A stretch of DNA of 64,000 nucleotides from Combretum micranthum (Eukaryota; Streptophyta; Magnoliopsida; Myrtales; Combretaceae), in the NCBI GenBank assembly GCA_024138025.1, contig JAMXBD010000572.1, positions 496,001 to 560,000 on the forward strand, written 5' to 3'. A model generated the notes under the pieces. It saw only the letters and a list, made by a program, of their open reading frames with translations. It ran no database searches and was not told the origin of the DNA. This document shows, piece by piece, positions 2,267 through 61,813 of the stretch (its first letter is position 1; every line of letters starts with the position of its first letter). The translations under genes and the position numbers were made by a program.

Positions 2267-3147
2267 CTAGGGTTTGTTGTAGATTTTGTTAACTTTTAAG
2301 ATTCCGGTTTGACTTTTGGCTTTTTGATTTATTCGTAAGATCATAGAATTTTGGGTTTTTTACTATGTTATATTTTTGGTTCAAAATTTATGTTTTATTT
2401 TATTTTATTTATGATTTATTTAATTTTTTCAGTTCCCGGGATTGTTTAACTGAGTTTAGGGTTATGAGTTGACTCTATTTGACTTTTGGTGGCAATTGAA
2501 ATTTTTTATTCTAAAATTCACCGAAGAATTTAAGGTTTTAGTATTTTGTTATCGAGTGTTATTTGGATATATCTTGATTTGCGTGTTAGGGATCAGATAG
2601 CTGATTTGGTTGGCGTACAGATGTTGAATCAAACAATTGTTGGATTTTCTATTTTGTTTTGAGGGTTCTCTTTTCTTAAGGTTAAGAATTTACGTATTTG
2701 ATCTTATTTAGAATTTGATTTTAACTTGGGTCTATTTTCAGGGTCTTGGTTTTGGTATTTGACTTTAAGATTATTTTCTAAGAATTATATTTGGGTTTTA
2801 CAAAGCCAGCAGCATTGAAGTTGTTTTTGCAGGCGTACGTTGAAAAATTGTAAAGGTTGATGAAATTGTGTTGAAAGATGGTGGCTCTTGCTTGTATTGT
2901 TGAAGGCTACCTTAATTCTTTTTAAAGGCTGGTGGCCTACTTTAGGAATTGGCAGGCCTATATTGTTTGTTCTCCAAAATTTACACAAATCTTCTCTCAA
3001 TTGCTTGTATTTATATGATAAGTCCTTAATGATCTGAAATATCAAATTAAGCATACTTGAGTACCATTTTCCTATGCTTTCTATAAAATCAAATAATAGT
3101 TTAGCATGATTTATAAAGTAAAAAGTGAGTGAAATATGACTTTATCA
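2267..3147 (-). mobile_element. Partial 3' LTR of minus-strand Athila-like element
   Basis: The right edge (TTTATCA at 3141-3147) directly follows, on the minus strand, a polypurine tract and the phrase CAAGCAAAAGTTCAAGTGTG. The same phrase precedes the 3' LTR of the 16-kb Athila at 60010-60033. The LTR therefore starts TGATAAAG on the minus strand. It contains a degraded GC word array (2802-2960) and then a TATA-like AAATATAATT (2792-2783 on the minus strand). Its distal end is missing, cut by the chromovirus LTR ending at 2266. No coding sequence; the ORF at 2785-3054 is array sequence. Confidence 0.6.
2802..2960 (-). promoter_or_regulatory. Decayed GC word array in Athila-like U3
   Basis: The words AAAGCCAGCAGC, GCAGGCGTACG, AAGGCTACC, AAAGGCTGGTGGCC and GGCAGGCC stand out from AT-rich surroundings and resemble decayed copies of the GCCGCCGGCGTA array seen elsewhere in the window. 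In minus orientation the array ends about 10 bases before the TATA-like sequence at 2783-2792. Its age makes the individual words approximate. Confidence 0.45.
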
Positions 3148-3459: not shown

Positions 3460-6400
3460 TATAAACCCTGGAAATTTTCCACATTAGTATATGACCTTAA
3501 AAGAGATCATATGAACTAGTTAATAGATTTAGATTCTAATTAAAATCTAAGAATAGATCAATACCTGGAATTTAGTCAGATAAAGGATTTAGAAAGTGAA
3601 TAAAGAATTTCTTTAACCCTAGTTGATACCAAAAACGAGATTTCGTATCTTGAATTAATAATTCAAGATATGATTAAAAGAAAATCTAAATTTTAAACCC
3701 AAAACCTGATATACAAATAGATTTAAATAAAAAGATATAAATATAGAAATTAAATGATTGTTTTTGAACTTAACAATGATTCGAGATTAGAACAACGAGT
3801 AGTAATGAGCTTAGATTTGAATTTAAACCCTAAATTCGAGATCCCTAGTTAATATTAATAACTACTAATAAAATTTCATGACGGGTATCAAAACTAAAGA
3901 TATGTATATAGTTTAGTTTTTGTGTCAAAAGCGATATTAAGTAATAAATTAGCTACGCTTATAAACAGAAAACGATAATCTAAAGATGAACCGTTAGGAT
4001 TATAAATACACAACGAAAACATAAACTGTTAAATAACTCAAGATCTAAATTTCAAATAAATAATCGAATCACGCTATTGTTCTAATTCGAGTTTTCTTAA
4101 GCTATTGAAGACTAAAATAAAAATTGACCTAATGAGTTCAGGAAACTTTAATCGCGGAAGATAAAATTATACAAATAATTAATCGTGTTTATATAAAACT
4201 CAAATTTGTATTATTTGATAAACTAAGTATTTTGTATAACCCTATAAACATGTTTTTATACAAAACTCTCAAACATTAGCTAATTTGCACCCGTATAACT
4301 TGTGAAATTATCCTAAAACTAAATTAAAATAATTAACTAATATATATATATATATATGTTTTTCGGCTGCAAATTCGGTGGGAAAGCTATGGGAGGAAAA
4401 GAGAGCCGGATTGATCAAATAATTCACCAAATTTGTTAACAAAAGCAACCTAATGACCAATTAAACAATGCCAACTCAACCTATCATTAAATAACATGAA
4501 AACAATAGCCAAATGGGAACAAATTCGGAGGACAATCGGAAGGGAAATGCAGCCCCAACTTCATCCTTCATTCTTCTATATATATATGTTCAAAGCTCAT
4601 AATGAGGAAACAAACAATTTTTATTTCCCATATTTTCCAGAACGAATCCACTCCTCCATAGCAAAAAATGAAAACAAAAAAAAACAAACAAACATTCAAA
4701 TACAATTCAAGAGAAAAACAATACCGAAAACCCTTAGATACGAGTTCAAATAAGTTGATGAAGTTCAAATGATTTTCTTTCAAATCTAAGCATTATAACT
4801 GACTTCTAATAATTATAGGAACATAATAAACACAACTTCGAGCTTCGAGTTTCATCGGACAAGCTCAACCGAAGTAAAAATTCAAAACCTTAGTTTTGGT
4901 TCCATAAGATCGAGATCTAAGATTATATGTATGTAGAAGTGTTAAGAGTTGTTGTCTGACTATGTATAAGATATGGGAACACTTACAAACGGTTTAGTAA
5001 TGCTTTAATGTGGAAAATTTAACAAAAGTGAATCGGATCATCGAGGAAGATGATGAACAGTGCTAACATTGCGTCAAAGCCGGTAGTGTAATCGTTAAAC
5101 GCTGGCGGCTTACATGGATAGGCCGCCGGTGTAGGGATGGCTTACACTAAACAGAAGCTACGTAAAATTTATTTTTACGTAAAAGATGAGTGTAGGCCGG
5201 CTGCCTGGAGATATATGCCGATGGCTTAAGACCGGCGTACGTTGAAAGCCGACAGCTTTCGAAGCTGGTGCACCTAATATGAAATGCTTTTCAAAACAAA
5301 GTCTACACCGGCACCTGGGTTTCAAAGCCGGCGGCTTTGAGCCAGCGTACACCTATGAATCTTTTAGAAAAGCTTGTTTGAAACAAACAGAATATATATA
5401 TATATATATACAATAAACCTACTGCATATATATTATATATATATATTGAGTAGAATCTATTAAATAGATAAGTAAATACAAGTATTAAAAGTGTATTTAG
5501 ATTAATATCTAATAATTCTTAAAATCCTTAGAATTAAGAGAAAATATTTAGTGTTGATAAAAGTTATAAATAATCAAATATTTGTGCTAAATAGATAAAA
5601 CAGGTAAGAATGGAAATTGAAATAAGCTAAATTTTTATAATGTGACTTATAAAAAATAACAAAATAATAATACGAGATAAAATAGGAGAACACGACAACA
5701 CTAAGAAATAATAAATAGAGATAATTTTCTATTGAGATCAATTAGAATAACATAGAATTAGTATTAGTCACTACAAAACTTAATAAATATCAAATTTAAG
5801 ACACTAGTCACATATAGAATTTGGTATATAACCTATAATATATTGATGAATACTTTATTCATCTTAATAGGTGATTTTGATATACTAGAGGATCTATCAG
5901 CAGATTATTACGACTGAGTCAGTATGAGCAGTGAGTAATTCAGTCATATTGTACTGTTTGTGCTTGTAAATAGCTGAATATGTAATGCAAAGATAATCAA
6001 ACGATTGTTTGTTGAAAGTATGTGGTGATCTGATTGTAAGATATTGATAAAATATCCTTACAAAAGTGATAATGCAATGATTTGATGTTGTGAAGTAGTA
6101 TGATGATGATTGTGTGTAATGTATGATCACCATAAAATTGAATAAGAATTATGACTTAAAGAAATAATATGATCATGCATTGCACGAATTGCATTGTTGC
6201 ATATATATTGGGATGACAGCCTGCTACGTATTAATATTTCGATTCTCTGTTAGTGCTTGGTTATTCTAATGTGTTGTTCTTCCAAGCTTTCTTTGTTCCG
6301 TCGATTCTACGGGAACTAATGCACAGAAGAACGCCGCCCGTAGTATCGCTTTGAAATGATTAATACTTAGGGAGTTTCTAAGGTGAGTGCAGAAGATGGT

Positions 6401-7041
6401 CAGTGTTTAATTGATTATATTCAAAGTGATAATCCTAAAACGAGAAATCGTTGATTCTCCTATGTACTTAGTCTCTCATGGGCAGGTGGGTCATGGAGTA
6501 ATGGTTCTTCAACCCTTAAAAGAGGGCGTAAATCTTTTTCCTCTTTTGGGTTCTAGATCATCCAAGCTTGTATCTGTGCATATGATTGAGTGTTTACATT
6601 GCATATGATTTGCTAATAACTTGTGTGATGTATGATATGTCTTGTTATTCACTGAGCTGTGGTTTCACTCATGCTCCAACAATCTTTTCAGGTTTACTTT
6701 ACGACCCTGGTTAGTCACTTCCAGGAGTATGGCTCTAGTAAGAGCTTAGGAGCTGGGAGTTTATGGTTATCTTTGGGAATAATGGTTATGTTTTCTTAGA
6801 TTAGTTTAGTTAATGTTATTGTATCAGTTGTAAACTCTAAGAAGATAACTGACTTGTAATAGTTCTATAATATTTTATAGAAGTTATTTACCAGTTTAAT
6901 TCTTACATGTATTTATCATTTCTTATCAAGCAATTAAAAGATCCTGTTGTTTTGAAAACCTGTCATTCTTTGAAGGTAATCTAGTAATAGTATTCAAGTG
7001 TGACTTGTTTACTAATATTAGGGTACCCTCAGGGCGTGACA
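3460..7041 (+). repeat. 5' LTR of Tekay-type element
   Basis: It begins TATAAACCCTGG (the first CA/TG base pair is mutated; the 3' copy begins TGTAAACCTCGG) and ends AGGGCGTGACA, directly before the primer-binding site. It contains a GC word array at 5076-5353 followed by TA-rich sequence at 5392-5410 that may serve as TATA box. That would make U3 about 1.9 kb and R-U5 about 1.6 kb. Several ORFs here are chance reading frames. Confidence 0.93.
5076..5353 (+). promoter_or_regulatory. GC word array upstream of TATA-like sequence (5' LTR)
   Basis: At least ten GC-rich words lie in 278 bases, including AAAGCCGGTAG, GGCCGCCGGTGTAGG, GTAGGCCGGC, GACCGGCGTACG, AAAGCCGACAGC, CTACACCGGCACC, AAAGCCGGCGGCTTT and AGCCAGCGTACACC. 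The words are variants of TACGCCGGC, AAGCCGCCGGCTT and GCCGGCGTA, the first and last being reverse complements. The array ends about 40 bases upstream of a TATATATA run. GCCGCC is the core of the ERF-bound GCC box and RCCGAC that of DRE elements; binding is an inference only. Confidence 0.7.
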
Positions 7042-13305: not shown

Positions 13306-16300
13306 TGTAAACCTCGGAAATTTTCCATATTAGTATACGATCTTAAAAGAGATCATATGAACTAATTAATAGATTTAGATTCTAATGAAAATCTAAGAAT
13401 AGATCAATACCTGGAATTTAGTCAGATAAAGGATTTAGAAAGTGAATAAAGAATTTCTTTAACCCTAGTTGATACCAAAAACGAGATTTCGTATCTTGAA
13501 TGAATAATTCAAGATATGATTAAAAGAAAATCTAAATTTTAAACCCAAAACCTGATATACAAATAGATTTAAATAGAAAGATATAAATATAGAAATTAAA
13601 TGATTGTTTTTGAACTTAACAATGATTCGAGATTAGAACAACGAGTAGTAATGAGCTTAGATTTGAATTTAAACCCTAAATTCGAGATCCTAGTTAATAT
13701 TAATAACTACTAATAAGATTTCAACGGGTATCAAAACTAAAGATATGTATATAGTTTAGCTTTTGTGTCAAAAGCGATATTAAGTAATAAATTAGCTACA
13801 CCTACAGACAGAAAACGATAATCTAAAGATGAACCGTTAGGATTATAAATACACAACGAAAACATAAACTGATGAATAACTCAAGATCTAAATTTCAAAT
13901 AAATAATCGAATCACGCTATTGTTCTAATTCAAGTTTTCTTAAGCTATTGAAGCCTAAAATAAAAATTGACCTAATGAGTTCAGGAATCTTTAATCGCGG
14001 GAGATAAAATTATACGAATAATTAATCGCGTTTATATAAAACTCAAATTTGTATTATTTGATAAACTAAGTGTTTTGTATAACCCTATAAACATGTTTTT
14101 ATACAAAAACTCTCAAACATTAGCTAATTTGCACCCGTATAACTTGTGAAATTATCCTAAAAATAAATTAAAATAATTAACTAATATATAAAATATATGT
14201 TTTTCGGCTGCAAATTCGGTGGGAAAGCTACGGGAGGAAGAGAGTCGGATCGATCAAATATTTCACCAAATTTGTCAACAAAAGCAACCTAATGACCGAT
14301 TAATCAATGCCAACTCAACCTAGCATTAAATAACATGAAAACAATAGCCACATGGGAACAAATTCGGAGGACAATCGGAAGGGAAATGCAGCCGTAACTT
14401 CATCCTTCATTCTTCTATATGTATATGTTCAAAGCTCATAATGAGGAAACAAACAATCCTCTTTATTTCCCAAATTTTCCAAAATGAATCCACTCCTCCA
14501 TAGCCACCAAAACGAACTGAAAACTGAAAACAGAAAACAAACAAACCAAAACATTCAAATACGATTCAAGAGAAAAACAATACTGAAAACCCTTGGATAC
14601 GAGTTCAAAGGTAAGTTGATGAAGTTCAAATGATTTTCTTTCAAATCTAAGCATTATAACTGACTTCTAATAATCATAGGAACGTAATAAACACAACTTC
14701 AAGCTTCGAGTTTCATCGGACAAGCTCAACCGAGGTAAAAATCCGAAACCCTAGTTTTGCTTCCATAAGATCGAGAACTAAGATTATATGTATGTAGAAG
14801 TGTTAAGAGTTGTTGTATGACTATATATAAGATATAGGAACACTTACAAATGGTTTAGTAATGTTTTTAACGTGGAAAATTTAACAAAATTGAATCGAAT
14901 CATCGAGAAAGGATGAACAGTGCGTTAAAGCTGGCAGTGTAATCGTTAAATGCCGACAGCTTACATGGATAGGCCAGTGGTGTAGGGACGGCTTACACTG
15001 AACAGAGGCTACATAAAATTTATTTTCACGTAAAAGATGAGCGTAGGCCAGCTACTTGGAGATATACGCCGACGGCTTAAGACCGGCGTACTTTGAAAGC
15101 CGACAGCTTTCGAAGCCGGTGCACCTAATATGAAATGCTTTTCAAAACAAAGTCTACACCGACACCTGGGTTTCAAAGCCAGCGGCTTTGAGCCGACATA
15201 CACCTATGAATCTTCTATGATAGCTTGTTTTGAAACAAATAGAATATATATATATACACACACAATAAACCTACTGCATATTATATATATATATATATTG
15301 ATATAGAATCTATTAAATAGATAAGTAAATACAAGTATTCAAGCATATTTAGATTAATATCTAATAATTCTTAAAATCTTTAGAATTAAGAGAAAATATT
15401 AGTGTTAATAAAAGTTATAAATAATCAAATATTTGTTCTAAATAGATAAAACAAGTAAGAATGGAAATTGAAATAAGCTAAATTTTTTATTAATGTGACT
15501 TCTAAAAAATAACAAAATAATGATACGAGATAAAATAGGAGAAAATAGACAACACTAAGAAATAATAAATAGAGATAATTTTCTATTGAGATCAATATAG
15601 AATAACATAGAATTAGTATTAGTCACTACAAAACTTAATAAATATCAAATTTAAGACACTAGTCACATATAGAATTTGGTTATATAACCTATAATATATT
15701 GATGAATACTTTATTCATCTTAATAGGTGATTTTGATATACTAGAGGATCTATCAGCAGATTATTACGACTGAGTCAGTATGAGCAGGTGAGTAATTCAG
15801 TCATATTGTACTGTTTGTGCTTGTAAATAGCTGAATATGTAATGCAAAGATAATCAAACGATTGTTTGCTGAAAGTATGTGGTGATCTGATTGTAAGATT
15901 GATAAAATATCCTTACAAAAGTGATAATGCAATGATTTGATGTTGTGAAGTAGTATGATGATGATTGTGTGTAATGTATGATCACCATAAAATTGAATAA
16001 GAATTATTGACTTAAAGAAATAATATGATCATGCATTGCACGAATTGCATTGTTGCATATATATTGGGATGACAGCCTGCTACGTATTAATATTTCGATT
16101 CTCTGTTAGTGCTTGGTTATTCTAATGTGTTAGTTCTTCCAAGGCTTTCTTGTTCTACTGGAACTAAGTGGCACCGAAGAACGCCACCCGTAGTATCGCT
16201 TTGAAATGATTAATACTTAGGGAGTTTCTAAGGTGAATGCAGGAGATGGTCAGTTTAATTGATTATATTCAAAGTGATAATCCTAAAACGAGAAATCGTA

Positions 16301-16889
16301 GATTCTCCTATGTACTTAGTCTTTCCTGGGCAGGTGGGTCATGGAGTAATGGTTCTTCAACCCTTAAAAAGAGGGTGTAAATCTTTTTCCTGTTTGGGTT
16401 CTAGATCGTCCAAGCTTGTATCTATGCATATGATTGAGTGTTTACATTGCATATGATTTGCTAATAACTTGTGTGATGTATGATATGTCTTGTTATTCAC
16501 TGAGCTGTGTTTTCGCTCATACTCCAACAATCGTTTCAGGTTTACTTTACGACTCTGGTTAGTCACTTCCAAGAGTATGGCTCTGGTAAGAGCTTAGGAG
16601 CTGGAAGTTTATGGTTATCTTTGGGAATAATGGTTATGTTTTCTTAGATTAGTTTAGTTAATGTTATTGTATCAGTTGTAAACTCTAGGAAGATAACTGA
16701 TTTGTAATAGTTCTGTAATATTTTATAGAAGTTATTTACCAGTTTAATTCTTACATGTATTTATCATTTCTTATCAAGCAACTAAAAGATCCTGTTGTTT
16801 TGAAAACCTATCATTCTTTGAAGGTCATCTAGTAATAGTACTCAAGTGTGATTTGTTTACTACTACTAGGGTACCCTTAAGGCGTGACA
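13306..16889 (+). repeat. 3' LTR of Tekay-type element
   Basis: It begins TGTAAACCTCGG and ends AAGGCGTGACA, followed by the target duplication TTTAG. It matches 3460-7041 along its whole length with scattered substitutions and small indels; for example the TA run at about 5394 is longer in the 5' copy. Its GC word array lies at 14928-15203. Confidence 0.93.
14928..15203 (+). promoter_or_regulatory. GC word array in 3' LTR
   Basis: The counterpart of 5076-5353. Several words have decayed relative to the 5' copy: AAAGCCAGCGGCTTT here for AAAGCCGGCGGCTTT there, GGCCAGTGGTGTAGG for GGCCGCCGGTGTAGG, and AGCCGACATACACC for AGCCAGCGTACACC. Most changes are at CpG or C/T positions. Confidence 0.65.
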
Positions 16890-23443: not shown

Positions 23444-23610
23444 TGTAACACACAGAAAAATAAGATAAAATGAATATAAATTGGTCATGATATATATATA
23501 TATATATATATAAGCCTATACCAAAGCCACAAAACAAGCTAAGTTTGGTTAATTTTGTTTTGGAAAAGAATTGTGAAAATTTGGAACTTCTGCAATTTTC
23601 TACAGATGCA

Positions 23611-23893
23611 ACACCGCCTTTTGGTGGGAATACGCCGCCGGCATATATACCGGCATAGGATGTCCATAGTGACAAATTTTCTTATGCTGGAGTCAAATGC
23701 TGGAGAGTGTGTGTGTGTGTGTTTGTCAACGTTGAATTAGATCATAAGCATTATTATCTAACACAGTTGACGTTGCCTTGGCTTTTACCGGCGTATGACA
23801 TTTTGAACGACGCGAAGGATTTTTGTTGCATGACGAACGCCACCTCCTGGGATTCTACACTGCTGGCGTAGATATCAGATTTGCCGGCGTAGG
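23611..23893 (+). promoter_or_regulatory. GC word array 5' of TATA box (second chromovirus)
   Basis: Words include ACACCGCCTTTTGG, AATACGCCGCCGGCATATATA, ACCGGCATAGG, TTACCGGCGTATG, GAACGCCACC, CTGCTGGCGTAG and TTGCCGGCGTAGG. The last word ends about 10 bases before TATAAAT. The surrounding LTR is AT-rich and its sequence is otherwise unlike the Tekay-type or Athila LTRs. Confidence 0.75.
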
Positions 23894-23903
23894 AATGAAA
23901 TTC

Positions 23904-23910
23904 TATAAAT
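23904..23910 (+). promoter_or_regulatory. TATA box of second chromovirus LTR
   Basis: TATAAAT in the context TTCTATAAATACACAG, a strong plant TATA match. It is directly preceded by the GC word array and so defines the probable U3 end. Confidence 0.7.
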
Positions 23911-25640
23911 ACACAGCATGAATAGCGGTTTTTGACAGACATTCCTCCTTTGCTTTATTTCTTCCTTTGAGCCTGTAGGGTCTGTTCTTGATATCCAAGT
24001 GTTAAGGCTTTATCTTAAGGAGAGTTTGATCAAAGGTAAGTGATCCTAATCCATCTACAACATGTTTTCTACCGATTTATGCATGATTTCTTAGGGTTTT
24101 GTTGATGTTCTTGAAGGATTTGTGGGAGAAAAACCCTAGCTTTGGTTAGAATCCGAGTTTGTGAATGCGAATCAAGTTTTAGTGATCCAAATCAGTAAGT
24201 TTCGTCTTTTCGTTGATGGATTTTAATCAATGTATGATTAGATGATCATTATACGTTCATGTTAATATACAAATCTAGGGTTTTGGTGAAAATTCCGGTA
24301 TTTGTGGAGTTTCATGCCGTTCATTGTTGTTTTTTAGGGTTTTTGTGGAGTTTAATTGGAGTAAACGGTGCGGATATCAAGATTCCTTGTCAGGTTAGGG
24401 TTTTTAGAGAATTTATGTCTGTTAGGATATATTGATAATGTGTTTATATCTGTTGATGTATATATATATGTGTGTGCTGTAACATGATATTTGGAGTTTG
24501 TGGAATTATTGTTGGTGTTGATATAGGAGTTTGTGGAGTTCGGATTGTCTTTGTTGTTGTTGATATCAAATTTGAGGATTTGAGTTATATTCCTAAAATT
24601 GAGAAAGGTATGACCAATCCTTGTTTGTTGTTTTCGCTTGTAAGTTTAGCATTGCTTAATTGGTTGTAGGAACATAATTTCATAATAAACCTAATACTAT
24701 TCGTCTTAATAATTGTCTGCTTGGTTGTGCTTGGATTTGACCAGTAAAACCTAGCAAACAGTGATACTGGTGAGGCACTTTGATGATCTTAGTGTGAGAT
24801 TGTCCCTAGTAGACCGTGCTTTGATATGATTCCGATAGAATTCGGGGAAAACAAGGATGTTTGAGGAATACCCACTCATCCATATATGTATATAATTACC
24901 TTATTTTCAAAGAGTTGGTTGTTTTTCAAGAGTAGTCCGAGTTATTTTGAGTTCGGGACTAAGAGTATACATGGTTCTGAACTGCGTTGATTTGCTAACC
25001 ATAAAAAGATAACAAATTGATTGCTTGCATTAAACTAGGTGCATTTGATATATCTCTGTTGTGTGTGCATTTGCATTTGTTTTTAAGGATTGGAGTTATT
25101 GTATTGGGCTTCGCAGCTCACTTTTTAAAATTTTAGGTACAAGTGATGAAAACATTATATATGATCTTTCAGATTATAATCTGATCTTTGATCGAGAGGA
25201 TGGCGATAGTGGACCTGGCTACCTAGCTAAGAGTTAGAATTTTTTATTATAGGATTATGGGAGAAAAGAAGTGCCTAGATATGTTGAAGACTTGATTTTA
25301 TTGTGTTTTGCTTATTATTATGTTTTATGAATAGTTATTAGATCATTTGTCGTTGGAATACTAAGTTGTAAATGAAGGTTTTCTCTTGTAGACAAATTTC
25401 AGTTGTTATATTTGATAGTTAGCTTGTGGATATGCCAACTAGGATCTTTGTTTGTTAAACAGGAATGTTATGAAGTTTTCTTGTGTTTCCAAGTTATTTA
25501 GGTTATGTTGAGTATCTTATGAGATACCCTATGTGTGTTTACAAATGATATTTGTATATTTGTGGATATTAGAGCCTTAGCATTTCCTAATCAAGAAAGG
25601 ACATGTGGCGGGTTATAATGCTTTATTTTAGGGTGTTACA

Positions 25641-26318
25641 CAAGTAATGCATGAAGATAACAAACATTGCAACTTGTTTTCTTGGTGGAACTCTTCTCTT
25701 TTATGTCTAAAAATGAGCTACAAAACACTTATATAAATAACACCTTACAAAGAAAAACAACAAAGTAGATAAACTTCAACTTTAGCAGCCATTAAGCGTT
25801 CTAAACCCCAACCAAAATTTGTCCCAAACCAACCACAAAAACATTAACAAACTTAAGCACAAATACAACCTCCATTAAAATACAAACTCAAGCCTGTAGA
25901 GGAAAAACAATGTAAGATAAATTCATTTTAAGTAGTTTAAAGTAATAAAACATAGTCTTAAATGATATTTCTATACTTATAGGGTCGAAACAAGCTTTGG
26001 AAGAAGGATTATCATCTTTAAATTCATCCCAAAATGGTAAGTTGCATAAAAATCTAGCTATACACCTATATTTCTATAAGAATGATTATATTACATGTTG
26101 ATGTATTATAAGATGATATATGTATATATATATAACACGTATAAACACTTAGGAACACATTAGAAACAACTTGGATGTGAAGAATCATGCAAAACAGATA
26201 AGAAGTTACGAGGAAGATGAACTGCAAAAGAGCACGGCATGTACATGGGGCCATGTACACCCCGTGTACCTCTCGGCTTCGATTTTGGGTTTGAAACCCA
26301 GAAGACCACGGCTGGTAT
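25641..26318 (+). mobile_element. Long LTR (Tekay type), left part, before copia insertion
   Basis: Order and local similarity match the U3 of the 13.4-kb element. For example GAGGAAGATGAACTGCAAAAG (here near 26211) compares with GAGGAAGATGATGAACAGTG at 5043, and the preceding TATATG/AAGATATG/AACAC phrases also correspond. Its own left end is missing at the junction with the second chromovirus LTR. It continues after the copia element at 33570-36655. No gene; the minus ORF at 26066-26389 runs across the LTR/copia boundary. Confidence 0.6.
26241..26299 (+). promoter_or_regulatory. Palindromic word module at the GC-array position
   Basis: Where the 13.4-kb element has its GC array, this LTR has perfect palindromes: GTACATGGGGCCATGTAC (26241-26258), overlapping GTACACCCCGTGTAC (26255-26269), and GGGTTTGAAACCC (26287-26299). 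A fourth, GGTACACGATTGTGTACC, is at 33570-33587, on the other side of the copia insertion and originally about 15 bases further on. The words differ from GCCGCCGGCGTA, but layout and palindromic nature are alike. Confidence 0.6.
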
Positions 26319-32983: not shown

Positions 32984-32984
32984 C

Positions 32985-33569: not shown

Positions 33570-36500
33570 GGTACACGATTGTGTACCCAACTGTGTTCCT
33601 TTCAGAAATCCGAAAAATATTAAAAAAATTTAAATTAAATTAGATCAAATTTGATTTAGTTCTAGAATTATTATTATTAGTATTATTATTATCATTATCA
33701 TTATTAAAAGTATTGTGTTATAATTATTAAACTCATTATTAGTATGGTTATTGCTAATCTTATTACTTTATGATGAATCTTATAATTATTTTTATACTAG
33801 TAATATGAGTATTATATATTATTATTATTATTATATTATATTATTACTGCTACTACTACTACTATAAAAACTTATTATTTATATTGATATCATCATCATC
33901 ATCATTATTATTATATTGTTTTTAATGTTGTTAATGTTATTATCATTAATAATATTATACTACTGCCATTATTATCAATAATGATATGATTATTATTGCT
34001 ATTATTATTATTAGTGACATTACTATTACTATTAATCAGATTATCATCATCATCATCATTACCAATGTTAGTATTAGTAATATTGTTAAAGATACTATTA
34101 TTATGGTAATTATTATTATTATTATCATTCTAATGATTTTTATTATTATCATTATAATCCATAATATTATTATAAGCATTACTCTTGATGATGATGTGAT
34201 AATAATAATAATAATAATATATAATTATTATTATTATTATTATTGTGATATGTGATATTATTATTGTCATTAAAATTATTACTGTTTTAATAAATTTATT
34301 ATGAAAAATAATATTAGTGTTACTAATAAATTACTTTATAATTATCATTATTAATATTACTAATATTTTTATCTTTATTGTTAATAATAGTATACTTTAT
34401 GAAAATAAAATATAATAATTGTAAAATACTTATTTTATACAAAAGAATGGAAATTTAAATAAGCTAAATTTTTTAGTAATATGATACCTATACATAACAA
34501 GAAAATTATATGAAGTATATGAAAAAAAACACGACGACACTAAATAATAGCAAATAAATACGAGTTACTATAAAATGTCAGATAAGGAACAATATAAAGA
34601 TAGCGATGATAATAACTATAAAAATATAAGCCTACTAAATACAAATTTTTGAATACCTGGTAGAAATATATAAATACCTAACAAGATCAAGACAAGCAAA
34701 ATAGAAATAAATATTAAATAATCATAAATTATCAGACGATCATTAAAGGACCAATACAAGTAATTGAAATTAAATTAAATATCAAGATAGGACACTTAGA
34801 CAATTGTAGAAGTTTTAGTGCGTTATTTACATTATATTAATAAGTATTTTGTCTTAGTAAGTGACAATGAATTGTAAATAATATAAATAGAACTAATATA
34901 TCTTAAATGAATTATTATTCTAAGTAAAAATCATATTAGATTGAGTAAGCTAATTAAAATAGATTTAGTGATTAAACTAGGTGATTAGTTTCAATCAACT
35001 CGACTTAGATTAATATACTAGATAAAACCATAAAAAGAAAGGAGTACGTAATTTCTAGAGTACGTCTAATTTAGAATTAGTGTAAAATATAAGTACAAGT
35101 TATACCATAATTAATATGGTGAATATATTGTTTCGAATATCCTATTTTTGAAACTAATAAAAAGATAGATTGGTTAAATAATAACATCGGATAACAATTA
35201 CAAATAGGAAGACTTCTCTTATAAATTCCATAACTTTAATCATAAGAAAAAAAATATGTTAAAAAAAATCATAAGAAAATAATATATATATCTATATAAA
35301 GATAAAATTCCTAGTTAAATAAGTAGAAAATATACCAAATTTAATAACTATGGCCCGAAAGAATACCATCAAAATCATTATATAAATAATAATAAATATC
35401 TCTTATTTCATTTTCATAGGAAAAATAGATCAGTTCTTGGATTTCCAGTAGCATATTCCAATAGATTAGCGAGGAGCACAAGTGAGTAACTTTGTCCTTA
35501 TCATACTATTTGTGCTTGTAGAATAGCTGCACCTATAATAATATATTTAAATGATATGCATGCGGGATTGGGTGTATTGCATGATGTATGGTATGTGCTT
35601 GATTGCCAAACTATCTTATTTTAAGTGATAAATCTATTGTATGATAATTATTGTATGAAACATGTTGTTGATGTCTGTGAATTGTATGACCATCTTAAAC
35701 TTGACTAAAAGCTACTGGTACCATAACGGAAATGGCCATGCATCACATAAATTGCATATATTGCATAAAGCGTGGCCACCTACTCGTGTAAGTATTTCGG
35801 ACGTTTGATAATGCTTCGTAAGCCTAAGCCTATAAGGCTAATAGATATACGCGGGGTTATCTTAGATTTGTTGGTACATAGGAACTAAAAGGTAAACAAA
35901 GGAACACCGCTTATGGTATTACTTAGAATGACTAACACCTAGTGGAGGAGTTTGAGGCTGAAAACAGGAAATGAGTGTTAAAGAAATGATAAATTAAAGT
36001 GATAAATAAAGTGATGACTGTTTTTTTCCTAATCTTAGTCTTCCCTAGGTAGATGAACCACATAGTAATGTGATTCCTTCAACCCCCAAGAGAGGGCGTA
36101 AATCTCCATTGGTTTGGATTCCGAATCCAAACTGCGTGTGCCTCATATGGTTTCTTGTTGCATTCATATGATTGGTAATTATACTTATTTGTTATTGTTT
36201 GATGTGTGGTATGGTCAGGTTATCTCACTAAGCCCGTGGTTCACTCACCCCCAAACAATGTTTGTGCAGGATTAATGCTAGCTGGGATTGGGTTAAGAAT
36301 GTGTGAAGCGAGCTTCTCCAACAGACCTTATTGAAGATAGAAATAAAGGATTTGGTAAAATTAGAATGAAAATTAGATAAATTGTATAATAATTGAAATT
36401 TGTAAGTTCTAAGTTTGAAACTTCATTTTTATTATTTGGTAGGGGATACCGATTCTCTGCTATCTTGGTAGAAAGTGGAAAATCGGATTCTATAGTTGAA

Positions 36501-38772: not shown

Positions 38773-39111
38773 AAATATGATGTGCCAAGTACACAAGATG
38801 TCTTGAATAGCCAATTAGAACAATTGTGTATTTTGGGATTTTTGTATTATATGGAATTACAGTAAAATAAAAGGATATGAACGGCTTGACAACGTGTATT
38901 ACGCACCATAATCAAACTGAACTACGCTAACCCTAATTCGATATGACACATGAAATAAGGATGACGTTTGTTTGCCACAATTCTAATACGAATTGATAAG
39001 ATCATAAACTTACTACAATCAAGACAATGATTGATAAGAGTAAGATTTGAGAGAATTCTCAACACAAGTTTTCAAATATCAAAAGACTACCCTAAACTCA
39101 TTATAATGGAG

Positions 39112-39121
39112 TTTATATATA
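39112..39121 (-). promoter_or_regulatory. TATA-like box of truncated element LTR
   Basis: Minus strand reads TATATATAAA in the context CTTCTATATATAAACTCC. It lies about 60 bases downstream of the GC word array. Confidence 0.6.
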
Positions 39122-39180
39122 GAAGCAAAAAGTAGTAAAAGAAAAATACAAAATAAAAAAAACAACTGTGTTTTTGAATG

Positions 39181-39440
39181 AAGGCCGGCTAAGTACGCCA
39201 TTGGCCTAGGATGTAAACGCTGCCAGCCTTGAGCCAGTGTACTTGCAGAAACAAACACCTGAGGCTATCACGCTGTCTTCCATGCCCATGATGTCGCAGT
39301 CTTTAATGAGTATGCTGCCAGCATTTAAAGAAAGCCACCGGTGTTGTGAACCATTCTCAACAATAATGAAGGCTGTTGAAGAAAGCCGCTTGTATTGGTT
39401 TGAAAGCCGTCGACATTGCATGTATGAGCTACCAGCCTTG
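39181..39440 (-). promoter_or_regulatory. GC word array in truncated element LTR
   Basis: Plus-strand words AAGGCCGGCTAAGTACGCC, AACGCTGCCAGCCTTGAGCC, TATGCTGCCAGC, AAAGCCACCGGTG, AAAGCCGCTTG, AAAGCCGTCGACATTG and CTACCAGCC. Same vocabulary as the other arrays, and again on the upstream side of the TATA box. Confidence 0.65.
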
Positions 39441-39564
39441 ATGAGTAAATTGATGCACATGTTACCTGATTCCTTCCCAACTTGAACTCGTGTCTCGTGT
39501 CCTTCTCACTTGATCTTTGTTCACTCCTAGACCAATAGACGAAGCCGTGAAATGATTCCCATCA

Positions 39565-41590: not shown

Positions 41591-43910
41591 GTATTTTTCA
41601 CTTTAACATTAAAGAGACCTCTCCTCCCAAGAATACCCTCTATTGTTTACATTTAATCTTGGAATTCTAATGAATTTCAAGAAATTACATGAATGTATCC
41701 TTAAAATTTCATCATCACTCTTTATTTGATAATATTATGCTTATAACGAAGAAGTTCGGTTCTTACTTTTAAGAATAGACAAGGAAAGAATATTTTTTTT
41801 GGACACTTATTTTATTCTTTATTTTTTATAATATTGAAATAAAAAGGCAAAAAATGCTTATTTATTATAAATATATGATTTCATGTGGATGTCCATTTAA
41901 TTTTCTCATCACTTTGATTGTTTGATATCCCTTTTTTTCTTATGTGCATTTATGTACCATATTAAGTATCGTAATATTTTATCTACTTGTAAGTTATAAT
42001 ATATAAGTACCCTATAAATATGGATTTCCCTATATGTACAATAGAATAAGAAAATATGATAATACAATATTCCTTCCTACATCTTCTTATTTTCTTTTAT
42101 GTTTTTTCTTTATTTTTATATGATATTGTTTAAATTTTGACGAGTGGAAAAGGGACCCATGTTATTTATATCTACTTACTTTTTCAAAATATATTCTTTG
42201 CTATTCCCATAAAGAAGGCATATATTATCCTTATTACTTGATGGCTTATGGTGTAATCCACATTGAGTATCTTTTGCTTTGTGTTCATCAATCATAGAAT
42301 ACTATTATTGGTTCAATAATAAAATCCATGAAAGTGGATCCAACACTAGTTTGTTTTATGTTATAATATGTAATATATGAAAACAGCTACGAATATCGAA
42401 TATAGCTTGAAAGTTTCACCTCTTGTACCCATCAGTTATGGCTTTAAAAAAAAAAAATCGATGGTGATCACTACATAAATTTTAGATTATTTATTTATTT
42501 ATTTTTAATTATACTCCAGGATATTGCCAAAGCACACGTTAGGGGATTGCAGAACCTTACTTTCAGTATCTTATTTGAGCAACGGGAGCCTATTGAAACT
42601 TAATTGGTTTCTTCCATTTATTTGCATGATAATCATGAATTCAATATTGTAAATCTACTGAACATATTATGAGGAAGATGTAATAGATAAGAAATTTCCA
42701 CAAGTACTTGTAACTAGACAAGAGAAACAGCAAATACCAACTCACTGGTACCAACATGAACCAACTCGCCGGTACTCTTCAATCAGAGAATAGGAATGCT
42801 CCCTCGTACTAGCAACAAATGGCTTGCCACTGCTACTCAACAGTGCAACATATATAAGTGACACTTAATAGTGGCTCCCTGGTATCCTGCTAAATTGTCA
42901 CTTTTTTTATAATTTTTGTTAAATTATTTATTAAAACACCATTTTAAGAGGTCAATATAAACACTTCAGTTATAATAAATGGCTTCATCACCTTTTGTAT
43001 TATAAAATACTATTTTAGAGTATTATTTTCTCTACTTCCATACTGTTATCAATCTTATGGTTGTGGCAAGTGTTTACTTCAATCTTTTGTGAGTAATATG
43101 AATAGATTGCAAGTACTTGGAGCCTCCATGTAGGTGCATAATATCTAATAAGTACAGTTCCTTACTATATTAATCCAAAACCCTAGTATACTTTAAAATT
43201 ATGGATTTTAGTAATTAGTTGTTGAATATTTAATACTCTAGTGATTAGCCCTCCTAAGCATGTAATATATGAAGTTATTAATGTTATAGTCAATAAAATT
43301 TTTTCTTGCTAAAATTTATCATCTTCATTCTCTTTTGGAAAGATATCATAGCAGATGTGCATTGATCAAAGACTACAGGTACACATTTTAAAAGCAGAGA
43401 TACTAAATTCGATAGCAAAAGAGTTCACCATATATGATATTTGATCACTTGAACATTAAGTTTAAAGTTCAAAAACGCCCAAGATTTTTTAATGATTTTG
43501 ATATTATATAGAATGAAAATAAAAGAAAAATTATATATTGACATACTATTTCCATATAAAGTAATTTTTCTAATACTTAAAATGAATCTTTCTTTTTTCT
43601 AATAAAGACGAATTTTATTTAATATAAAAAGATTACACCAACTGAATCATTTGATATAAAAGACTCAGACGAAGATTAGAGGTGTTTTAAAACCCAATCA
43701 AATAAACCAAGAAATTTCTTCAAAAGACAAATTGATGCAAACTAGATAGCATCAAGTGCAGAGCTGACCAACTCCAAGTTCGACAATGTATTTCAAGGAA
43801 TTGAAGCCTCAATAACTGGAATTTCAAAGATAAAAACATAAGTTAAGCAAACGAAGGATGCATAAAGTAGTTTAGGATATGAAAGATTGAAGCTTGGAGC
43901 TATTGCATAA
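41591..43910. other. AT-rich intergenic DNA, one promoter-like spot
   Basis: No supported coding frame on either strand. The only organised signal is a four-copy word set with a TATA-like box at 42741-42885, listed separately. The rest is AT-rich unique or very old repeat sequence. Confidence 0.6.
42741..42885 (+). promoter_or_regulatory. Four-copy CTCNCYGGTAC word array around a TATA-like box
   Basis: CTCACTGGTAC (42741-42751), CTCGCCGGTAC (42765-42775), CTCCCTCGTAC (42799-42809) and, after the TATATAAG at 42851-42858, CTCCCTGGTAT (42875-42885). The layout resembles the GC arrays of LTRs, but the words differ and no LTR ends were found around it. Confidence 0.4.
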
Positions 43911-44148
43911 TACACACCGGCCTTGATAGAAAGCCACCGGCCTTTGTCAAACACAGCTAGCGTTTAAAACGTCATTATCAGATAACCTTTGTCCTATACC
44001 GACCAAACGCTGCCGACCTTTATGGCCTATGCCAACGGTGTAGGGTTTAAGCCATCGGACCTTCCTTCTAGCATACAGTTTCCTCATATTTGTATTTTAT
44101 TTCGTTCTTGTGAAGGCTACAGCTTATAATTAATGGCCGCCAGTGTAG
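43911..44148 (+). promoter_or_regulatory. GC word array in an unassigned LTR-like remnant
   Basis: Words include ACACCGGCCTTGATAG, AAAGCCACCGGCC, CTATACCGACC, AACGCTGCCGACC, ATGCCAACGGTGTAGG, AAGCCATCGG and TGGCCGCCAGTGTAG. The text that follows (44150-44500) resembles an LTR leader. LTR ends could not be fixed, and no good TATA box directly follows. Confidence 0.55.
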
Positions 44149-45180
44149 ATGATCCAACATTTGGTTTTCTTGTTTTGTCTTTTAGGTTTCTTTTGTATAG
44201 TTATAAGCAATCCTTTGGCTTTGCATTTGAACATATCACATGATGAATGGAAAATTGAGAGAGTTTTCTCTTTGAGTTCTTGTTACAACTTGTTCTTGAA
44301 CTTATTGGAATTTGCCTGTGGCATTCAACCCTTGACTTATCAATCGATTTGCCATCATTGATTGTGGCATTTTCTACTATACCAAGGCTTTTTGCTTCGT
44401 TATAAGCAACGGGTCGATTTTTACCAAAATTCTTGGACGATCCTTAGGTTTGAATTCCATCGTCGATTGTTGATTCTTAGTTTCATATACCTAGGTTCTC
44501 TTTTTACATCACAAATTATTGATCTAGAGAATAATATGATATGATTTCTTCCATATGAACAAAAGTCACATAATTGTTGAGTACAAAAAATCCATAAAAT
44601 GGATGACATAATCCACATAGGATGCCATAAAAAGATAATGAAAAACTAAAAAATTTGAAATTAAAATTAAACCAATTATTCAAAAAGCTATTGAGAATCT
44701 AATATCTTGATTGACATAATGTTCTCATATTCACTGGATCTGTTGAAGTAATGATACGAAATGGAGACTTTGCGTGTTTTACGGATCTAGCGTTATATCA
44801 TAATCTAAGGATTTGTAATATGTTTTTGGGTCTTTATGATTTATGAAAAACTGAAAATAATATATATGAATAATCAATCCTTGGATATGACACACCAAAA
44901 AAAGAATGAACTAGTTGTTTCAATCAATCGCTATTATGCACAATTTAAAAAAAAACAATAAAAATTAATCTTAAGAAGAAAACTCAATATTACTTAATAA
45001 ACAATTGTTCTTAAAGGACAATACAATGTCAAAGATGACAAAACTTTCTCTAACATAACCTTAATGACCCTTATATTCGCACAAGTCAGGTAAGGGCAAG
45101 TATGGAACATAAAATCAAAACATATAAAATAGGAAATAAAAAATAAACTTAAAAAATAGGGTGTGAAATCACATTGTCAA
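44149..45180. other. LTR-like leader remnant and unassigned AT-rich DNA
   Basis: Downstream of the array at 43911-44148. Short open frames at 44149-44361 and 44362-44544 begin with hydrophobic text but have no homologue I recognise and lie where a retroelement leader would be. No gene supported. Confidence 0.5.
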
Positions 45181-45357: not shown

Positions 45358-45508
45358 GTTTATGATAAGATCATATTATATACAATTTGTTGATGTTTAA
45401 AAGAGCTAGAATGGATATTTGTTTTGATTAAATTTTATGTTTCAGGACTAATTTGGACAAAGAAATCAAAACAAGAGACTTTGAATCGAAAATAGGAAAA
45501 ATTAAGTC

Positions 45509-46058
45509 AAGGCCGGCATTTCAACATTCAAAACCGCCGGCGTTTAGATGGCTTACACCCAAGGCCGTTGCTAGCACTGCCAGCTTTGTCGAGCATAAGT
45601 TCCAGCCACACTAAAAGCCGCCTCAAAGCTGTCGGCGTAGAAGATGAAGAAGCCAGCGTACTTGAAGGCCGGCAGCTCAGAATTGGAAAGTCACCAGCGC
45701 ACAAGGAGTTACAGCATACACCGGCCCCTAAGCCGCCGGCGTTGAGGCAGTGTACATCATAGATCTGAAGCGACATGAAGATATCAAACGCTTGGAGGAA
45801 ATTGAAGAGACAAATCTGTTGGAGTGTCTATGCCGGTGTCAAAGCCGCCGGCTTTGGGACAACGTTCGTTATAAATTGGCCCAACGCTTTATTTCTGATC
45901 ATATACATCGGCTAGATCTACATCTAAGCCGCCGACGTAGAAGCAGCCTACATGTGTAACCGATATTGAAGGCTGCCAGTGCACTGCCTGCGCAAAGGAG
46001 AAATTGAAGATACGCCCTGTAAGCGCCGGCGTAGGATCCATAACTGCCGGCGTACGAA
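45509..46058 (+). promoter_or_regulatory. GC word array 5' of Athila TATA box (5' LTR)
   Basis: The richest array in the window: over a dozen words in 550 bases, e.g. AAACCGCCGGCGTTTAG, AAGCCGCCGGCGTTGAGG, AAAGCCGCCGGCTTTGGG, CTAAGCCGCCGACGTAG, GCGCCGGCGTAGG and CTGCCGGCGTACG. The first halves of units tend to read TACGCCGG and the last parts CCGGCGTA, which are reverse complements, so units can fold back. It ends about 45 bases before TATAAATA. Open frames on both strands inside it are by-products of GC content. Confidence 0.8.
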
Positions 46059-46102
46059 GTGAAACAGCAAATTTCAATTAATGTCTTGCGCGAAATTTTT
46101 CC

Positions 46103-46110
46103 TATAAATA
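46103..46110 (+). promoter_or_regulatory. TATA box of Athila 5' LTR
   Basis: TATAAATA in the context TTTCCTATAAATAGGGG, a near-perfect plant TATA box. A CAAC-rich leader follows about 30 bases later, consistent with an R region start there. Confidence 0.8.
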
Positions 46111-47139
46111 GGGGTTCCACCCCCCTCCAACAATCATCCAAGAAAATCCAACAACACATCCAAGTAGCTCTAAATCATACTACAATACATAGATTAGAAC
46201 TAGCATTCCATAGAGATTTTTGAAGAGATATTGAAGTTTTTCAAGAATTTGCAAGTGAAGCTTTGATATATTGAATTGGTGATATCTGATCTTTTCCTTT
46301 TATGCAATTCCTATATCTGAATATTTTGATCATAATGAAATCATTTGCAATTTCTTATCTGATTTTTGAATCATCATCCATGAGTAGCTAAATTCTTTTT
46401 GTGGGAAGTTGATGAAGCTTTAAACATGCTAAAATGATCTTTGAAACCATGTTATAAGATAGTTAGAATCATGAAATATTCATATTGAGTTCTGATTATT
46501 CATCATATTTGGTGTATAAGAATTCTGATAACTCGGAAGGGAAATTAGGGTTCATATGAATTCATAAATTGAGATTAAATTACAATTGCGGAAGCGGCGG
46601 AGTTTAATCTAATTTAGAAATTGTCCATGAATATTAATGCAATTTTATATTGATTTCTCACTAAGGAATTAGGGGATGTTAATATAAAGTATTAGTCAAT
46701 TATAGAATCGGAAGGTTTATAATTGTAATTTTGATTCCACTAATAATTTATTTAGCGGAAGCTATTGAATTGTTTTGTGGTTTAAAAGGTTTTTAAACTC
46801 TGTTTTTAAATCTTGACAATTTCTTATGAATATCCATGAATCTAATTATCATTATAACATGACTTCAAGTTGATTGGCAATAGTTTAAAGTGAATTCTGC
46901 TCCTTCCCACATTTTTCTAATATATCACTCTCTTCAAAAGCTCATTGCATTCATATAGATACTTAATTAGATAATTTAGTTTAATCTTAATCTAATCATT
47001 TGAAAAGATCAATTGCCTAGATATTAGTATTAGTTGATAGATCGACACTTGACTTATGCTATATTACAAGATAAGGCCCAGTACGCTTGCTGGATAAGAT
47101 GCTTTAAAATTCAATACTAATATAGCACATCAAGTTTTC

Positions 47140-47157
47140 TGGCGCCGTTGCCGGGGA
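47140..47157 (+). other. Primer-binding site (tRNA-Asp type)
   Basis: TGGCGCCGTTGCCGGGGA, eight bases after the LTR, the site typical of the Athila/Tat group. Confidence 0.93.
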
Positions 47158-56070: not shown

Positions 56071-56497
56071 AAGGCCGGCTCAAGGCTACCAGCCTTGAGC
56101 AAGCTCTGAAAAGACAAGGAAAGCCGGTTCAACGCCGCCAGCTTTAGGCTGGCGTAAAGGTCAGTAGAGAAGTAGGTGAGCACCGCAAAAGAAGCCGGCA
56201 AGGGAATGGTCAAGGCCGCCGGCTTATATGCCGGCGTTTGAGTACAATATTTACACCGGCAGGGGAAGGTGAATGCCGTCGGCTTAGTGCCATCGTATGT
56301 GCAAGATTTCTTAGTTTCTGAAAATTCCCGATTAAAGCCGGCACCTGGGATTAAAAGCCGCCAGCTTTAAGCCTGCGTATCCACATAAGCCGGCTGTGTA
56401 AATGGATAAGCTGCCAGCTTTATGCTCTCGGTATGTAATTTTTCTGGTTACACTGGCTGTAAGCCGCCGGCGTACATCGCAGAAATGTCGGTGTAGG
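56071..56497 (+). promoter_or_regulatory. Internal GC word array between integrase and 3' ORF
   Basis: Words include AAGGCCGGCTCAAGGC, AACGCCGCCAGC, AAGGCCGCCGGCTTATATGCC, GCCGGCGTTTGAG, TTTACACCGGCAGGGG, AAGCCGGCACCTGGG, AAAGCCGCCAGC, AAGCCGCCGGCGTACATCG and TGTCGGTGTAGG. Same vocabulary as the LTR arrays, but inside the element. A CT-rich leader (56525-56580) follows. The phrase AAGCCGGCACCTGGG is close to CACCGGCACCTGGG in the Tekay-type LTR at about 5306. Confidence 0.75.
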
Positions 56498-56632
56498 TTC
56501 TGCAGATGCTTTTAACAGGTACGAATCCTCTCTCTCTTTCTCATTCTTACTCACTCTCACTCTCTATTACTCTCACCCGAAGAATTCATCTCTTCATTGG
56601 CCTCATTCATTGAGTAAAATCCAGCTGTCCAA

Positions 56633-60033: not shown

Positions 60034-60180
60034 TGATAAGATCATATTTTATACAATTTGTTGATGTTTAAAAGAGCTAGAATGGATATTTGTTTTGATT
60101 AAATTTTATGTTTCAGGACTAATTTGGACAAAGAAATCAAAACAAGAGACTTTGAATCGAAAATAGGAAAAATTGAAGTC

Positions 60181-60722
60181 AAGGCCGGCATTTCAACATT
60201 CAAAGCCGGCGTTTAGACGGCTTACACCAAGGCCGTTGCCAGCACTGCCAGCTTTGCCGAGCATAAGTTCCAACCACACTGAAAGCCGCCTCAAAGCTGC
60301 CGGCGTAGAAGATGAAGAAGCCAGCGTACTTGAAGGCCGGCAGCTCAGAATTGGAAAGTCACCAGCGCACAAGGAGTTACAGCATACGCCGGCTCCTAAG
60401 CCGCCGGCGTTGAGGCAGTGTACATCATAGATCTGAAGCGACATGAAGATATCAAACGCTTGAGGAAATTGAAGAGACAAATCTGTTGGAATGCCTACGC
60501 CGGTGTGAAAGCCGCCGGCTTTGGGACGGCGTTCGTTATAAATCAGCCCAACGCTTCATTTCTGATCACATACGCCGGCTAGATCTACATCTAAGCCGCC
60601 GGCGTAGAAGCGGCCTACATGTGTAACCGATATTGAAGGCTGCCAGTGCACTGCCTGCGAAGGAAATTGAAGATACGCCGCCTGTAAGCCGCCGGCGTAG
60701 GATCCATAACTGCCGGCGTACG
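60181..60722 (+). promoter_or_regulatory. GC word array in Athila 3' LTR
   Basis: The same array as at 45509-46058, with better preserved words in places: TACGCCGGTGTGAAAGCC, AAAGCCGCCGGCTTTGGG, GGACGGCGTTCG, CTAAGCCGCCGGCGTAG and GTAAGCCGCCGGCGTAGG. Comparing the copies shows loss mainly by C/T or G/A change at CpG (for example GCCGACGTAG in the 5' copy for GCCGGCGTAG here). Confidence 0.8.
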
Positions 60723-60768
60723 AAGTGAAACAGCAAATTTCATTTAATGTCTTGCACGAAATTTTTCC

Positions 60769-60776
60769 TATAAATA
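60769..60776 (+). promoter_or_regulatory. TATA box of Athila 3' LTR
   Basis: TATAAATA in TTTCCTATAAATAGGGG, as in the 5' LTR. It could drive read-out transcription into 61809 and beyond. Confidence 0.75.
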
Positions 60777-61813
60777 GGGGTCTTCTCCTCACTTCATCAG
60801 AATACATCCAAGTAGCTCTAAATCATACTACAATACATAGATTAGAACTAGCATTCCATAGAGATTTTTGAAGAGAATTGAAGTTGTTCAAGAATTTGCA
60901 AGTGAAGCTTTGATATTTTGAATTGGTGATATCTGATCTTTTTCCTTTTATGCAATTCATATATCTGAATATTTTGATCATAATGAAATCATTTGCAATT
61001 TCTTATCTGATTTTTGAATCATCATCCATGAGTAGCTAAATTTTTGTGGGAAGTTGATGAAGCTTTAAACATGCTAAAATGATCTTTGAAACCATGTTAT
61101 AAGATAGTTAGAATCATGAAATATTCATATTGAGTTCTGATTATTCATCATATCTTTGGTGTATAAGAATTCTGATAACTCGGAAGGGAAATTAGGGTTC
61201 ATATGAATTCATAAATTGAGATTAAATTGCAATTGCGGAAGCGGCGGAGTTTAATCTATTTAGAAATTGTCCATGAATATTAATGCAATTTTATATTGAT
61301 TTCTCACTAAGGAATTAGGGGATGTTAATATAAAGTATTAGTCAATTATAGAATCGGAAGGTTTATAATTGTAATTTTGATTCCACTAATAATTTATTTA
61401 GCGGAAGCTATTGAATTGTTTTTGTGGTTTAAAAGGTTTTTAAACTCTGTTTTTAAATCTTGACAATTTCTTATGAATATCCATGAATCTAATTATCATT
61501 ATAACATGACTTCAAGTTGATTGGCAATAGTTTAAAGTGGATTCTGCTCCTTCCCACATTTTTCTAATATATCACTCTCTTCAAAAGCTCATTGCATTCA
61601 TATAGATACTTAATTAGATAATTTAGTTTAATCTTAATCTAATCATTTGAAAAGATCAATTGCCTAGATATTAGTATTAGTTGATAACTGTCTGGTAGTT
61701 AATAGATCTCGTCGGGATCGACACTTGACTATGCTATATTACAAGATAAGACCCAGTACGCTTGCTGGATAAGATGCTTTAAAAATTTACTACTATATAA
61801 GCACGCTAGTTTA

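Follow-up and report, generated by a model that had tools for sequence, protein, structure and literature searches.

LTR retrotransposons of the window and their arrays

The stretch of DNA analysed here, 64 kb long and referred to as the window, contains several LTR retrotransposons that carry arrays of a short GC-rich motif (Table 1). The LTR pairs of the Athila-type element (family A) and the Tekay-type element (family D) are real, each with a 5-bp target-site duplication. The pol of element A gave profile matches to RT_RNaseH and Integrase_H2C2 and is of gypsy type, not copia, and an ORF after pol matched PF20167 with an E value of 1.8e-4, under the curated cut-off. Element A has the gypsy-type pol, the Asp-type primer site and the post-pol ORF that we take to define Athila, and the best protein match of the Athila gag of the window was found in Punica granatum (75% identical over 89%). 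The retrotransposons mark the genome as that of a plant, and the gag match makes a member or relative of the Myrtales likely. Element D, also not copia, combines an RVT_1 match with a chromodomain-like end, its C-terminal EITWELEEEIKKNYPHLF looking, by reading, like the end of a chromodomain. The C-terminal EAT*ELEEDMRSRYPELF of element B, which has a stop inside, looks by the same reading like such an end as well; a profile search of element B found no chromodomain match, only SH3_Tf2-1.

The class assignments of families C, E, F, H and I are based on partial evidence. The sequence of array F is 70% identical over 181 bp to an LTR-like stretch of a randomly chosen locus, L026. Family C LTRs are represented by two copies of about 2.8 kb, bounded by TGAAATGACC and GGGTCTTTACA. 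Their flanks are TTTTT/TTTTT and TTTAT/TCTAT, and both copies resemble solo LTRs. The Tekay-type element is inserted into an older, minus-strand Athila; its flanks at 3132-3452 and 16901-17568 match, inverted, adjoining Athila 3' parts. A further stretch of the window, 33660-34420, is very AT-rich (14-21% GC in 500-bp steps) and holds many diverged direct and inverted repeats.

Table 1. Array-bearing elements of the window, their arrays and associated signals
Feature	Position	Strand	Details
Family A, Athila-type 5' LTR	45363..47132	+	array 45508-46055, 16 dyads; TATAAATA 46103-46110
Family A, Athila-type 3' LTR	60034..61808	+	array 60180-60721, 19 dyads; TATAAATA 60769-60776
Family A target-site duplication	45358-45362/61809-61813		GTTTA, 5 bp
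Family A Asp primer site	47140-47156		TGGCGCCGTTGCCGGGG at 47140
Internal array G	56074..56500	+	11 dyads, between pol end and env-like ORF
Putative CT-rich leader exon after array G	56520..56632	+	97.8% mean identity, 4 copies
Putative leader intron	56633-57310	+	GTAAG at 56633, TTTGCAG ahead of 57311
Env-like ORF ATG	57313	+	ATG in 2 of 4 copies aligned
Family D, Tekay-type putative chromovirus 5' LTR	3460..7041	+	array 5075-5350; iMet primer site 7051-7062
Family D, Tekay-type 3' LTR	13306..16889	+	array 14927-15189; chromodomain-like end encoded 13194-13247
Family D target-site duplication			TTTAG, 5 bp
Family B, second putative chromovirus 3' LTR (TGTAACAC...GTGTTACA)	23446..25648	+	dyads 23609-23892; TATAAATA 23904-23911
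Element E 5' LTR region, upper limit approximate	38776..39560	-	array 39180-39440, 9 dyads
Element E signals	39121-39112; 38772	-	TATATATAAA at 39121-39112; iMet primer site at 38772
Array F	43890..44170	+	5 dyads; LTR limits not found, no clear TATA
Family I, old Athila-type LTR	2802..3147, starts 3147	-	weak array, 2 dyads (2801, 2925); other limit not found

A sequence-only reading of the window had listed arrays at eight places. At up to two mismatches, the 12-mer GCCGCCGGCGTA matched the window 31 times, compared with 0.14 matches expected from 100 shuffles. A profile of the repeated unit found 93 dyads, against a mean of 4.6 in shuffles, and a scan for clusters of profile sites found seven, against none in five shuffles. 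Chance and base composition are excluded as the origin of the arrays by these shuffles and by the permuted motifs described below. Five of the clusters are the arrays of families A, D and E; the others lie at 43930-44148, in array F, and at 56070-56475, a place absent from the earlier list. Six of the eight places listed passed the cluster threshold; the array at 23611-23893 fell below it, with five dyads in two groups, and the one at 2802-2960 has just two dyads. Since the arrays at 45509 and 60181, and likewise those at 5076 and 14928, belong to the LTR pairs of one insertion each, the eight places amount to six independent arrays.

The 93 dyads divide into 77 in LTR or LTR-like arrays (A, 16 + 19; D, 10 + 11; E, 9; B, 5; F, whose LTR limits were not found, 5; I, 2), 11 in one internal array, and 5 elsewhere, namely at four other spots inside element A and at 1736 in another repeat (1173-2227). 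The profile scan found no dyads in the interior of element D, across the whole copia element at 26319-33567, or in the 21,646 bp of the window assigned to no element. Arrays are therefore not universal among LTRs, as the copia element lacks them.

A degenerate dyad and its spread through the genome

Profile and core counts define the repeated unit as a degenerate dyad, WANGCC-GCC-GGCNTW, with the core GCCGGC and the half-site GGCNTW. GCC and GGC face each other across a preferred spacer of 3 bp, mostly GCC, and are flanked by WAN and NTW. Counts of GCC-Nx-GGC for spacers of one to ten bases were 1, 1, 44, 3, 1, 0, 5, 9, 3 and 5, and GCC was directly followed by GGC 72 times, many of them within GCCGCCGGC. 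In 17 arrays (6,967 bp), GCCGGC occurred 72 times, compared with none in the flanking stretches compared. GCCGCC is the core of the ERF GCC-box, through which the sequence-only reading had suggested shared regulation. The core counts led us to reject the GCC-box as the repeated unit: the GCC-box word AGCCGCC occurred only 17 times in the same 17 arrays (about 7.0 kb), and 32 of the 48 GCCGCC occurrences in arrays belong to GCCGCCGGC. The DREB word RCCGAC was present 19 times in the 7.0 kb.

When the pairing of the two arms was examined over 44 sites, 11 of 12 positions showed no covariation beyond shuffling; the exception was position 2, where the bases are nearly always A and T (p = 0.009). 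A structural hairpin with paired arms is ruled out by this result, and arms that do not covary fit degenerate protein sites. Seven of the nine window arrays had CpG observed/expected ratios of 0.93-1.15, compared with 0.47 in the remainder of the window; the ratio was low in array E (0.60) and the old array I (0.35).

Across the 1.865 Gb of genome searched, the exact 12-mer GCCGCCGGCGTA occurred 12,233 times (6,101 + 6,132), whereas its reversed-letter control occurred four times (0 + 4). The 16 distinct arrays picked by the exact word comprised 7 of family B, 6 of family C, 2 of family A and 1 of family I, so that the word favours families B and C. We also give counts for 20 random 10-kb regions, an unbiased sample in which a cluster required at least four profile sites; training of the profile drew in part on window arrays and on loci picked by the exact word, and L020, L026, L028 and L047-L054 lie outside it. 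The word at up to two mismatches was found in 2 of the 20 regions (L016 and L027), and clusters in four (L020, L026, L027 and L028); L016 had too few sites to form one. In 200 column-permuted profiles, clusters averaged 0.01 with a maximum of 1, against the 4 observed, and sites averaged 14.8 with a maximum of 31, against 48.

Three of the four clustered random regions have LTR context. The L020 cluster lies within a Tekay-like LTR, 75% identical to family D over 1,259 bp, and the other two are each followed on their own strand by an iMet primer site, about 400 bp further on in L026 and about 270 bp in L028. Among the five random regions with visible sequence upstream of an iMet-like site (L009, L016, L022, L026 and L028), two have a cluster. 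In L027, an ORF matching RVP_2 follows the array by about 2.3 kb, the array being on its coding strand. Window positions 324-2227 and L027:3825-7368 are collinear, except that L027 has about 1.7 kb extra, array H included, in place of 24 bp in the window; this could be either an insertion in L027 or a deletion in the window, and no clear target-site duplication was seen at the extra 1.7 kb. As the window relatives of the L027 flanks lack the array stretch, we did not count this array as having LTR context. The motif is thus concentrated in LTRs in both the window and the random sample, which speaks against its being equally frequent elsewhere, the outcome that the earlier reading had named as contrary to its claim.

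Two exact words on one strand of contig C2, at 3128516 and 3135571, are about 7.06 kb apart; the first falls within L039, which is related to the Athila LTR. The two Athila LTRs of the window start 14.7 kb apart, and the C2 pair may mark a shortened derivative that is non-autonomous.

Past the L028 primer site, an ORF encodes a copia-type gag (Pfam Retrotran_gag_2, E 3.3e-15), and 30 of its 32 protein matches carry the Retrotran_gag_2 domain. We therefore assign this family, K, to the Ty1/copia superfamily from its gag. The L028 LTR stretch gave 40 scored places among 1,956 candidates, L028 itself included, and on six contigs two such places lie 4-8 kb from each other on one strand. L028 and eight other copies, taken from 41 other listed matches, hold 33 dyads (6 + 27), with one to seven per copy, while permuted profiles gave a mean of 0.6 and a maximum of 7 over the same nine copies. 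TTTATACATG follows close behind the last dyads in six of the nine. With a copia-type gag behind it and dyads in its LTR copies, this family places the motif in Ty1/copia as well as in Ty3/gypsy. Six L028-type LTRs, all on one strand, lie within about 137 kb at C193:376167-512898, either as a local cluster or through a segmental duplication.

Array position, the env-side array and relatedness of the arrays

Arrays had been proposed to end 10-60 bases before a TATA-like box. This holds for families A, B and E, where the gap between array and box is 47 bases in both LTRs of A (TATAAATA), 11 in B (TATAAATA) and 58 in E (TATATATAAA, minus strand), and does not clearly hold for Tekay-type family D. 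There, just an AT microsatellite stands behind the array, and a likelier TATA with a leader is at about 4577, roughly 500 bp upstream of it. In family C, a TATA-like site with a CT-rich leader likewise precedes the array by about 500 bp. All of these promoter positions are read from the sequence and are not mapped starts. GTATGT and ttacag signals in family C LTRs suggest spliced leaders, as does a donor-like GTAAGT at 24036 in the family B LTR.

Genome-wide, GCCGGCGTA was found 10-40 bp before TATAAATA 1,085 times (571 + 514; control 0 + 1), and at the same distance after it twice (2 + 0; control 2 + 0). The flipped word preceded TATAAATA at this distance 92 times (45 + 47; control 0 + 1). 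By reading, 92 of the first 100 listed occurrences of the word before TATAAATA belong to family B. Because this family dominates the count, the polarity is strong in B and no more than suggestive outside it.

Array G lies inside the Athila-type element, and the stretch 56060-56720, which spans it, gave 40 scored matches among 925 candidates. These are the window and 39 other copies, 84-93% identical, all 39 of which cover the array; since the query itself includes the array, copies that lack it may be missed. A one-off nested insertion was rejected as the origin of array G on account of these 39 other places and of flanks common to the four aligned copies. Identity in the four copies was highest in the putative leader, followed by the pol end (96.5%), the ORF start (94.2%), the array (91.1%), most of the intron-like part (91.0%) and the 30 bp around the acceptor and ATG (88.3%). 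The GTAAG and TTTGCAG signals delimit a possible leader intron before the env-like ORF. The strongest single argument for a promoter role is the presence of dyads at a second, non-homologous Athila site before an ORF.

The proposal that the array-bearing LTRs are otherwise unrelated is borne out for families A, B, C, D, E and F, which had no cross-family DNA match outside the arrays at the threshold used. Families B and I were grouped together by an alignment of 363 bp at 67% identity (L040 to window 1937-2295), which we read as outside the B LTR. Within the arrays, 4 of 129 cross-family pairs scored above the largest of 40 null scores obtained with spacers shuffled and motifs kept, where about three would be expected; the pairs above the null include L039-L020 and B-I, and L020 was scored as its own family though related to D. 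At this sensitivity, arrays of different families share little or nothing beyond the motif.

Conservation of the dyads within families was uneven, in a comparison that scored as dyad every alignment column with a site in at least one sequence. In family A, dyads were kept better than array spacers in three of six pairs, those with L039 (86-89 versus 76-79%), and had little or no advantage in the other three. In family C, dyads were kept better in five of six pairs, with little or no advantage in one, and the six pairs of family B showed no consistent difference. In neither A nor C were dyads conserved above the LTR outside the array (e.g. 86.7 versus 88.2% and 74.4 versus 81.6%). Between the two D LTRs, for which the array limits used were too wide, dyads were less conserved than the remainder (88.0 versus 95.6%), the pattern expected from CpG decay. 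These values at most hint at selection on the dyads.

Interpretation and comparison with known systems

Any explanation has to account for a clustered motif that is associated with LTRs and spread over both copia and gypsy, with near-absence of other common sequence. We favour, with a probability of roughly 55%, the reading that the arrays are convergent clusters of dyad sites for one host DNA-binding factor, next to LTR promoters. Clusters would adjoin promoters by lying just upstream of the LTR TATA in several families and, in Athila, also upstream of the env-like ORF; the clusters of Tekay family D and of LTR family C would follow the likelier TATA at a distance of about 500 bp. The dyads would most likely be bound by a DNA-binding protein of the host, presumably dimeric, with transcription being raised or timed as a result. 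Each family would independently have gained and multiplied the identical site, as all of them need transcription in one host, and such convergence would explain arrays that have a common motif and little else. We infer promoter positions, binding, activation and convergence from the DNA itself; the case for convergence rests on the absence of other similarity between arrays that turn over fast. The downstream position of the array in C and D and the LTRs without arrays count against this reading, as do the uneven conservation of the dyads and the weight of family B in the polarity count. A bolder extension, which we hold tentatively and at somewhat less than even odds, is that one host factor is a common switch for a large share of the plant's LTR retrotransposons, copia, chromovirus and Athila lineages each having evolved clusters of its site, the last at both promoters. 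If so, retrotransposon families would rise together when that factor is active.

Transfer of an array-bearing U3 segment between families, through template switching or a nested insertion, with later divergence of everything but the motif, would also account for a motif common to both superfamilies, and nesting is real here, a Tekay-type element sitting inside an old Athila. The few array pairs above the null hardly exceed chance expectation, and families A-F lack cross-family matches outside arrays; the horizontal exchange raised by the sequence-only reading has no clear positive evidence, and we consider it unlikely. We judge it equally unlikely that the arrays matter as CpG islands, palindromes or small-RNA regions, with a role in DNA methylation or siRNA production and not in activator binding. 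The raised CpG ratios of most window arrays favour such a role, as do Sirevirus palindromes, described as sRNA mapping hotspots (PMC5311732); a role of this kind has been argued for those of maize. Weighing the other way are the arms without covariation and the low ratios of arrays E and I; moreover, a CpG role alone would leave one word in many families, and its polarity towards TATA, unexplained.

Still less probable are clusters of ERF GCC-box or DREB sites serving stress regulation. GCCGCC does occur within the dyad and both consensus words are present in the arrays, but the enriched core is GCCGGC, most GCCGCC occurrences are accounted for by GCCGCCGGC, and the GGCNTW half, the most conserved here, is no part of the GCC-box. 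An ancestral LTR predating the copia-gypsy split, from which all arrays descend, would put the same motif in both superfamilies, yet the LTRs of these families have little else in common and the copia element of the window lacks the motif, which makes such descent very improbable.

Comparisons of retrotransposon promoters usually take one family at a time. Among open-licence papers we found no report of one LTR motif common to copia and gypsy lineages of one genome. An ORF translated from the array had no match among public proteins, which is weak as a test of whether the motif occurs in other plants. A dyad common to copia and gypsy lineages of one genome allows the convergence of unrelated selfish elements on a single host regulator to be tested in a natural setting, and could itself serve as DNA bait for finding the host factor.

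The closest known system is that of the Sirevirus repeated motifs (RM), GC-rich LTR palindromes present in many copies and forming a CpG island (Bousios et al. 2010, PMC2829016). In the sections of that paper drawn on here, RM lie on average 37 bp before a conserved TATA, with extra copies 5' of ENV, and all but one have the core CGG-CCG, with a consensus that differs by element; they are reported only in Sireviruses (Ty1/copia), being absent from the classic Ty1/copia elements compared. The present arrays are similar in having 5-19 dyads each in A, B, D, E and F, with a preferred 3-bp spacer, and extra copies 5' of an env-like ORF in Athila (array G). Set against the RM layout they give a mixed picture, with a CpG ratio of about 1 in seven of nine arrays and a TATA just downstream in A, B and E, not in C and D and not clearly in F and I. 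Unlike RM, their core is GCC-(GCC)-GGC, so that the half-sites face the other way than in CGG-CCG, one motif is common to gypsy and copia families of one genome, and the hosts A and D are not copia. The arrays would thus work like those of the RM kind and differ in two of its defining features, the core and the Sirevirus host.

A looser parallel is provided by Del chromovirus LTRs, which have plastic 5' CpG islands, none of them in the eudicot Del group of that paper (PMC4029996, as far as its text was available). Here, too, putative chromovirus LTRs contain a variable GC-rich island; in contrast to Del, for which that part of the text describes no defined word, the islands are built of a dyad and occur in a likely eudicot. 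Arabidopsis Athila6A is reported to have an ENV ORF promoter and an annotated intron (PMC4977677, in the portion available). The array G region resembles it in its candidate env-side promoter and putative intron, and differs in the dyad array before the env-like ORF, no repeated motif being described in that portion for Athila6A. One motif would in this way link Athila's LTR promoter with its env-side region, and a Sirevirus-type layout would extend to Athila and chromoviruses.
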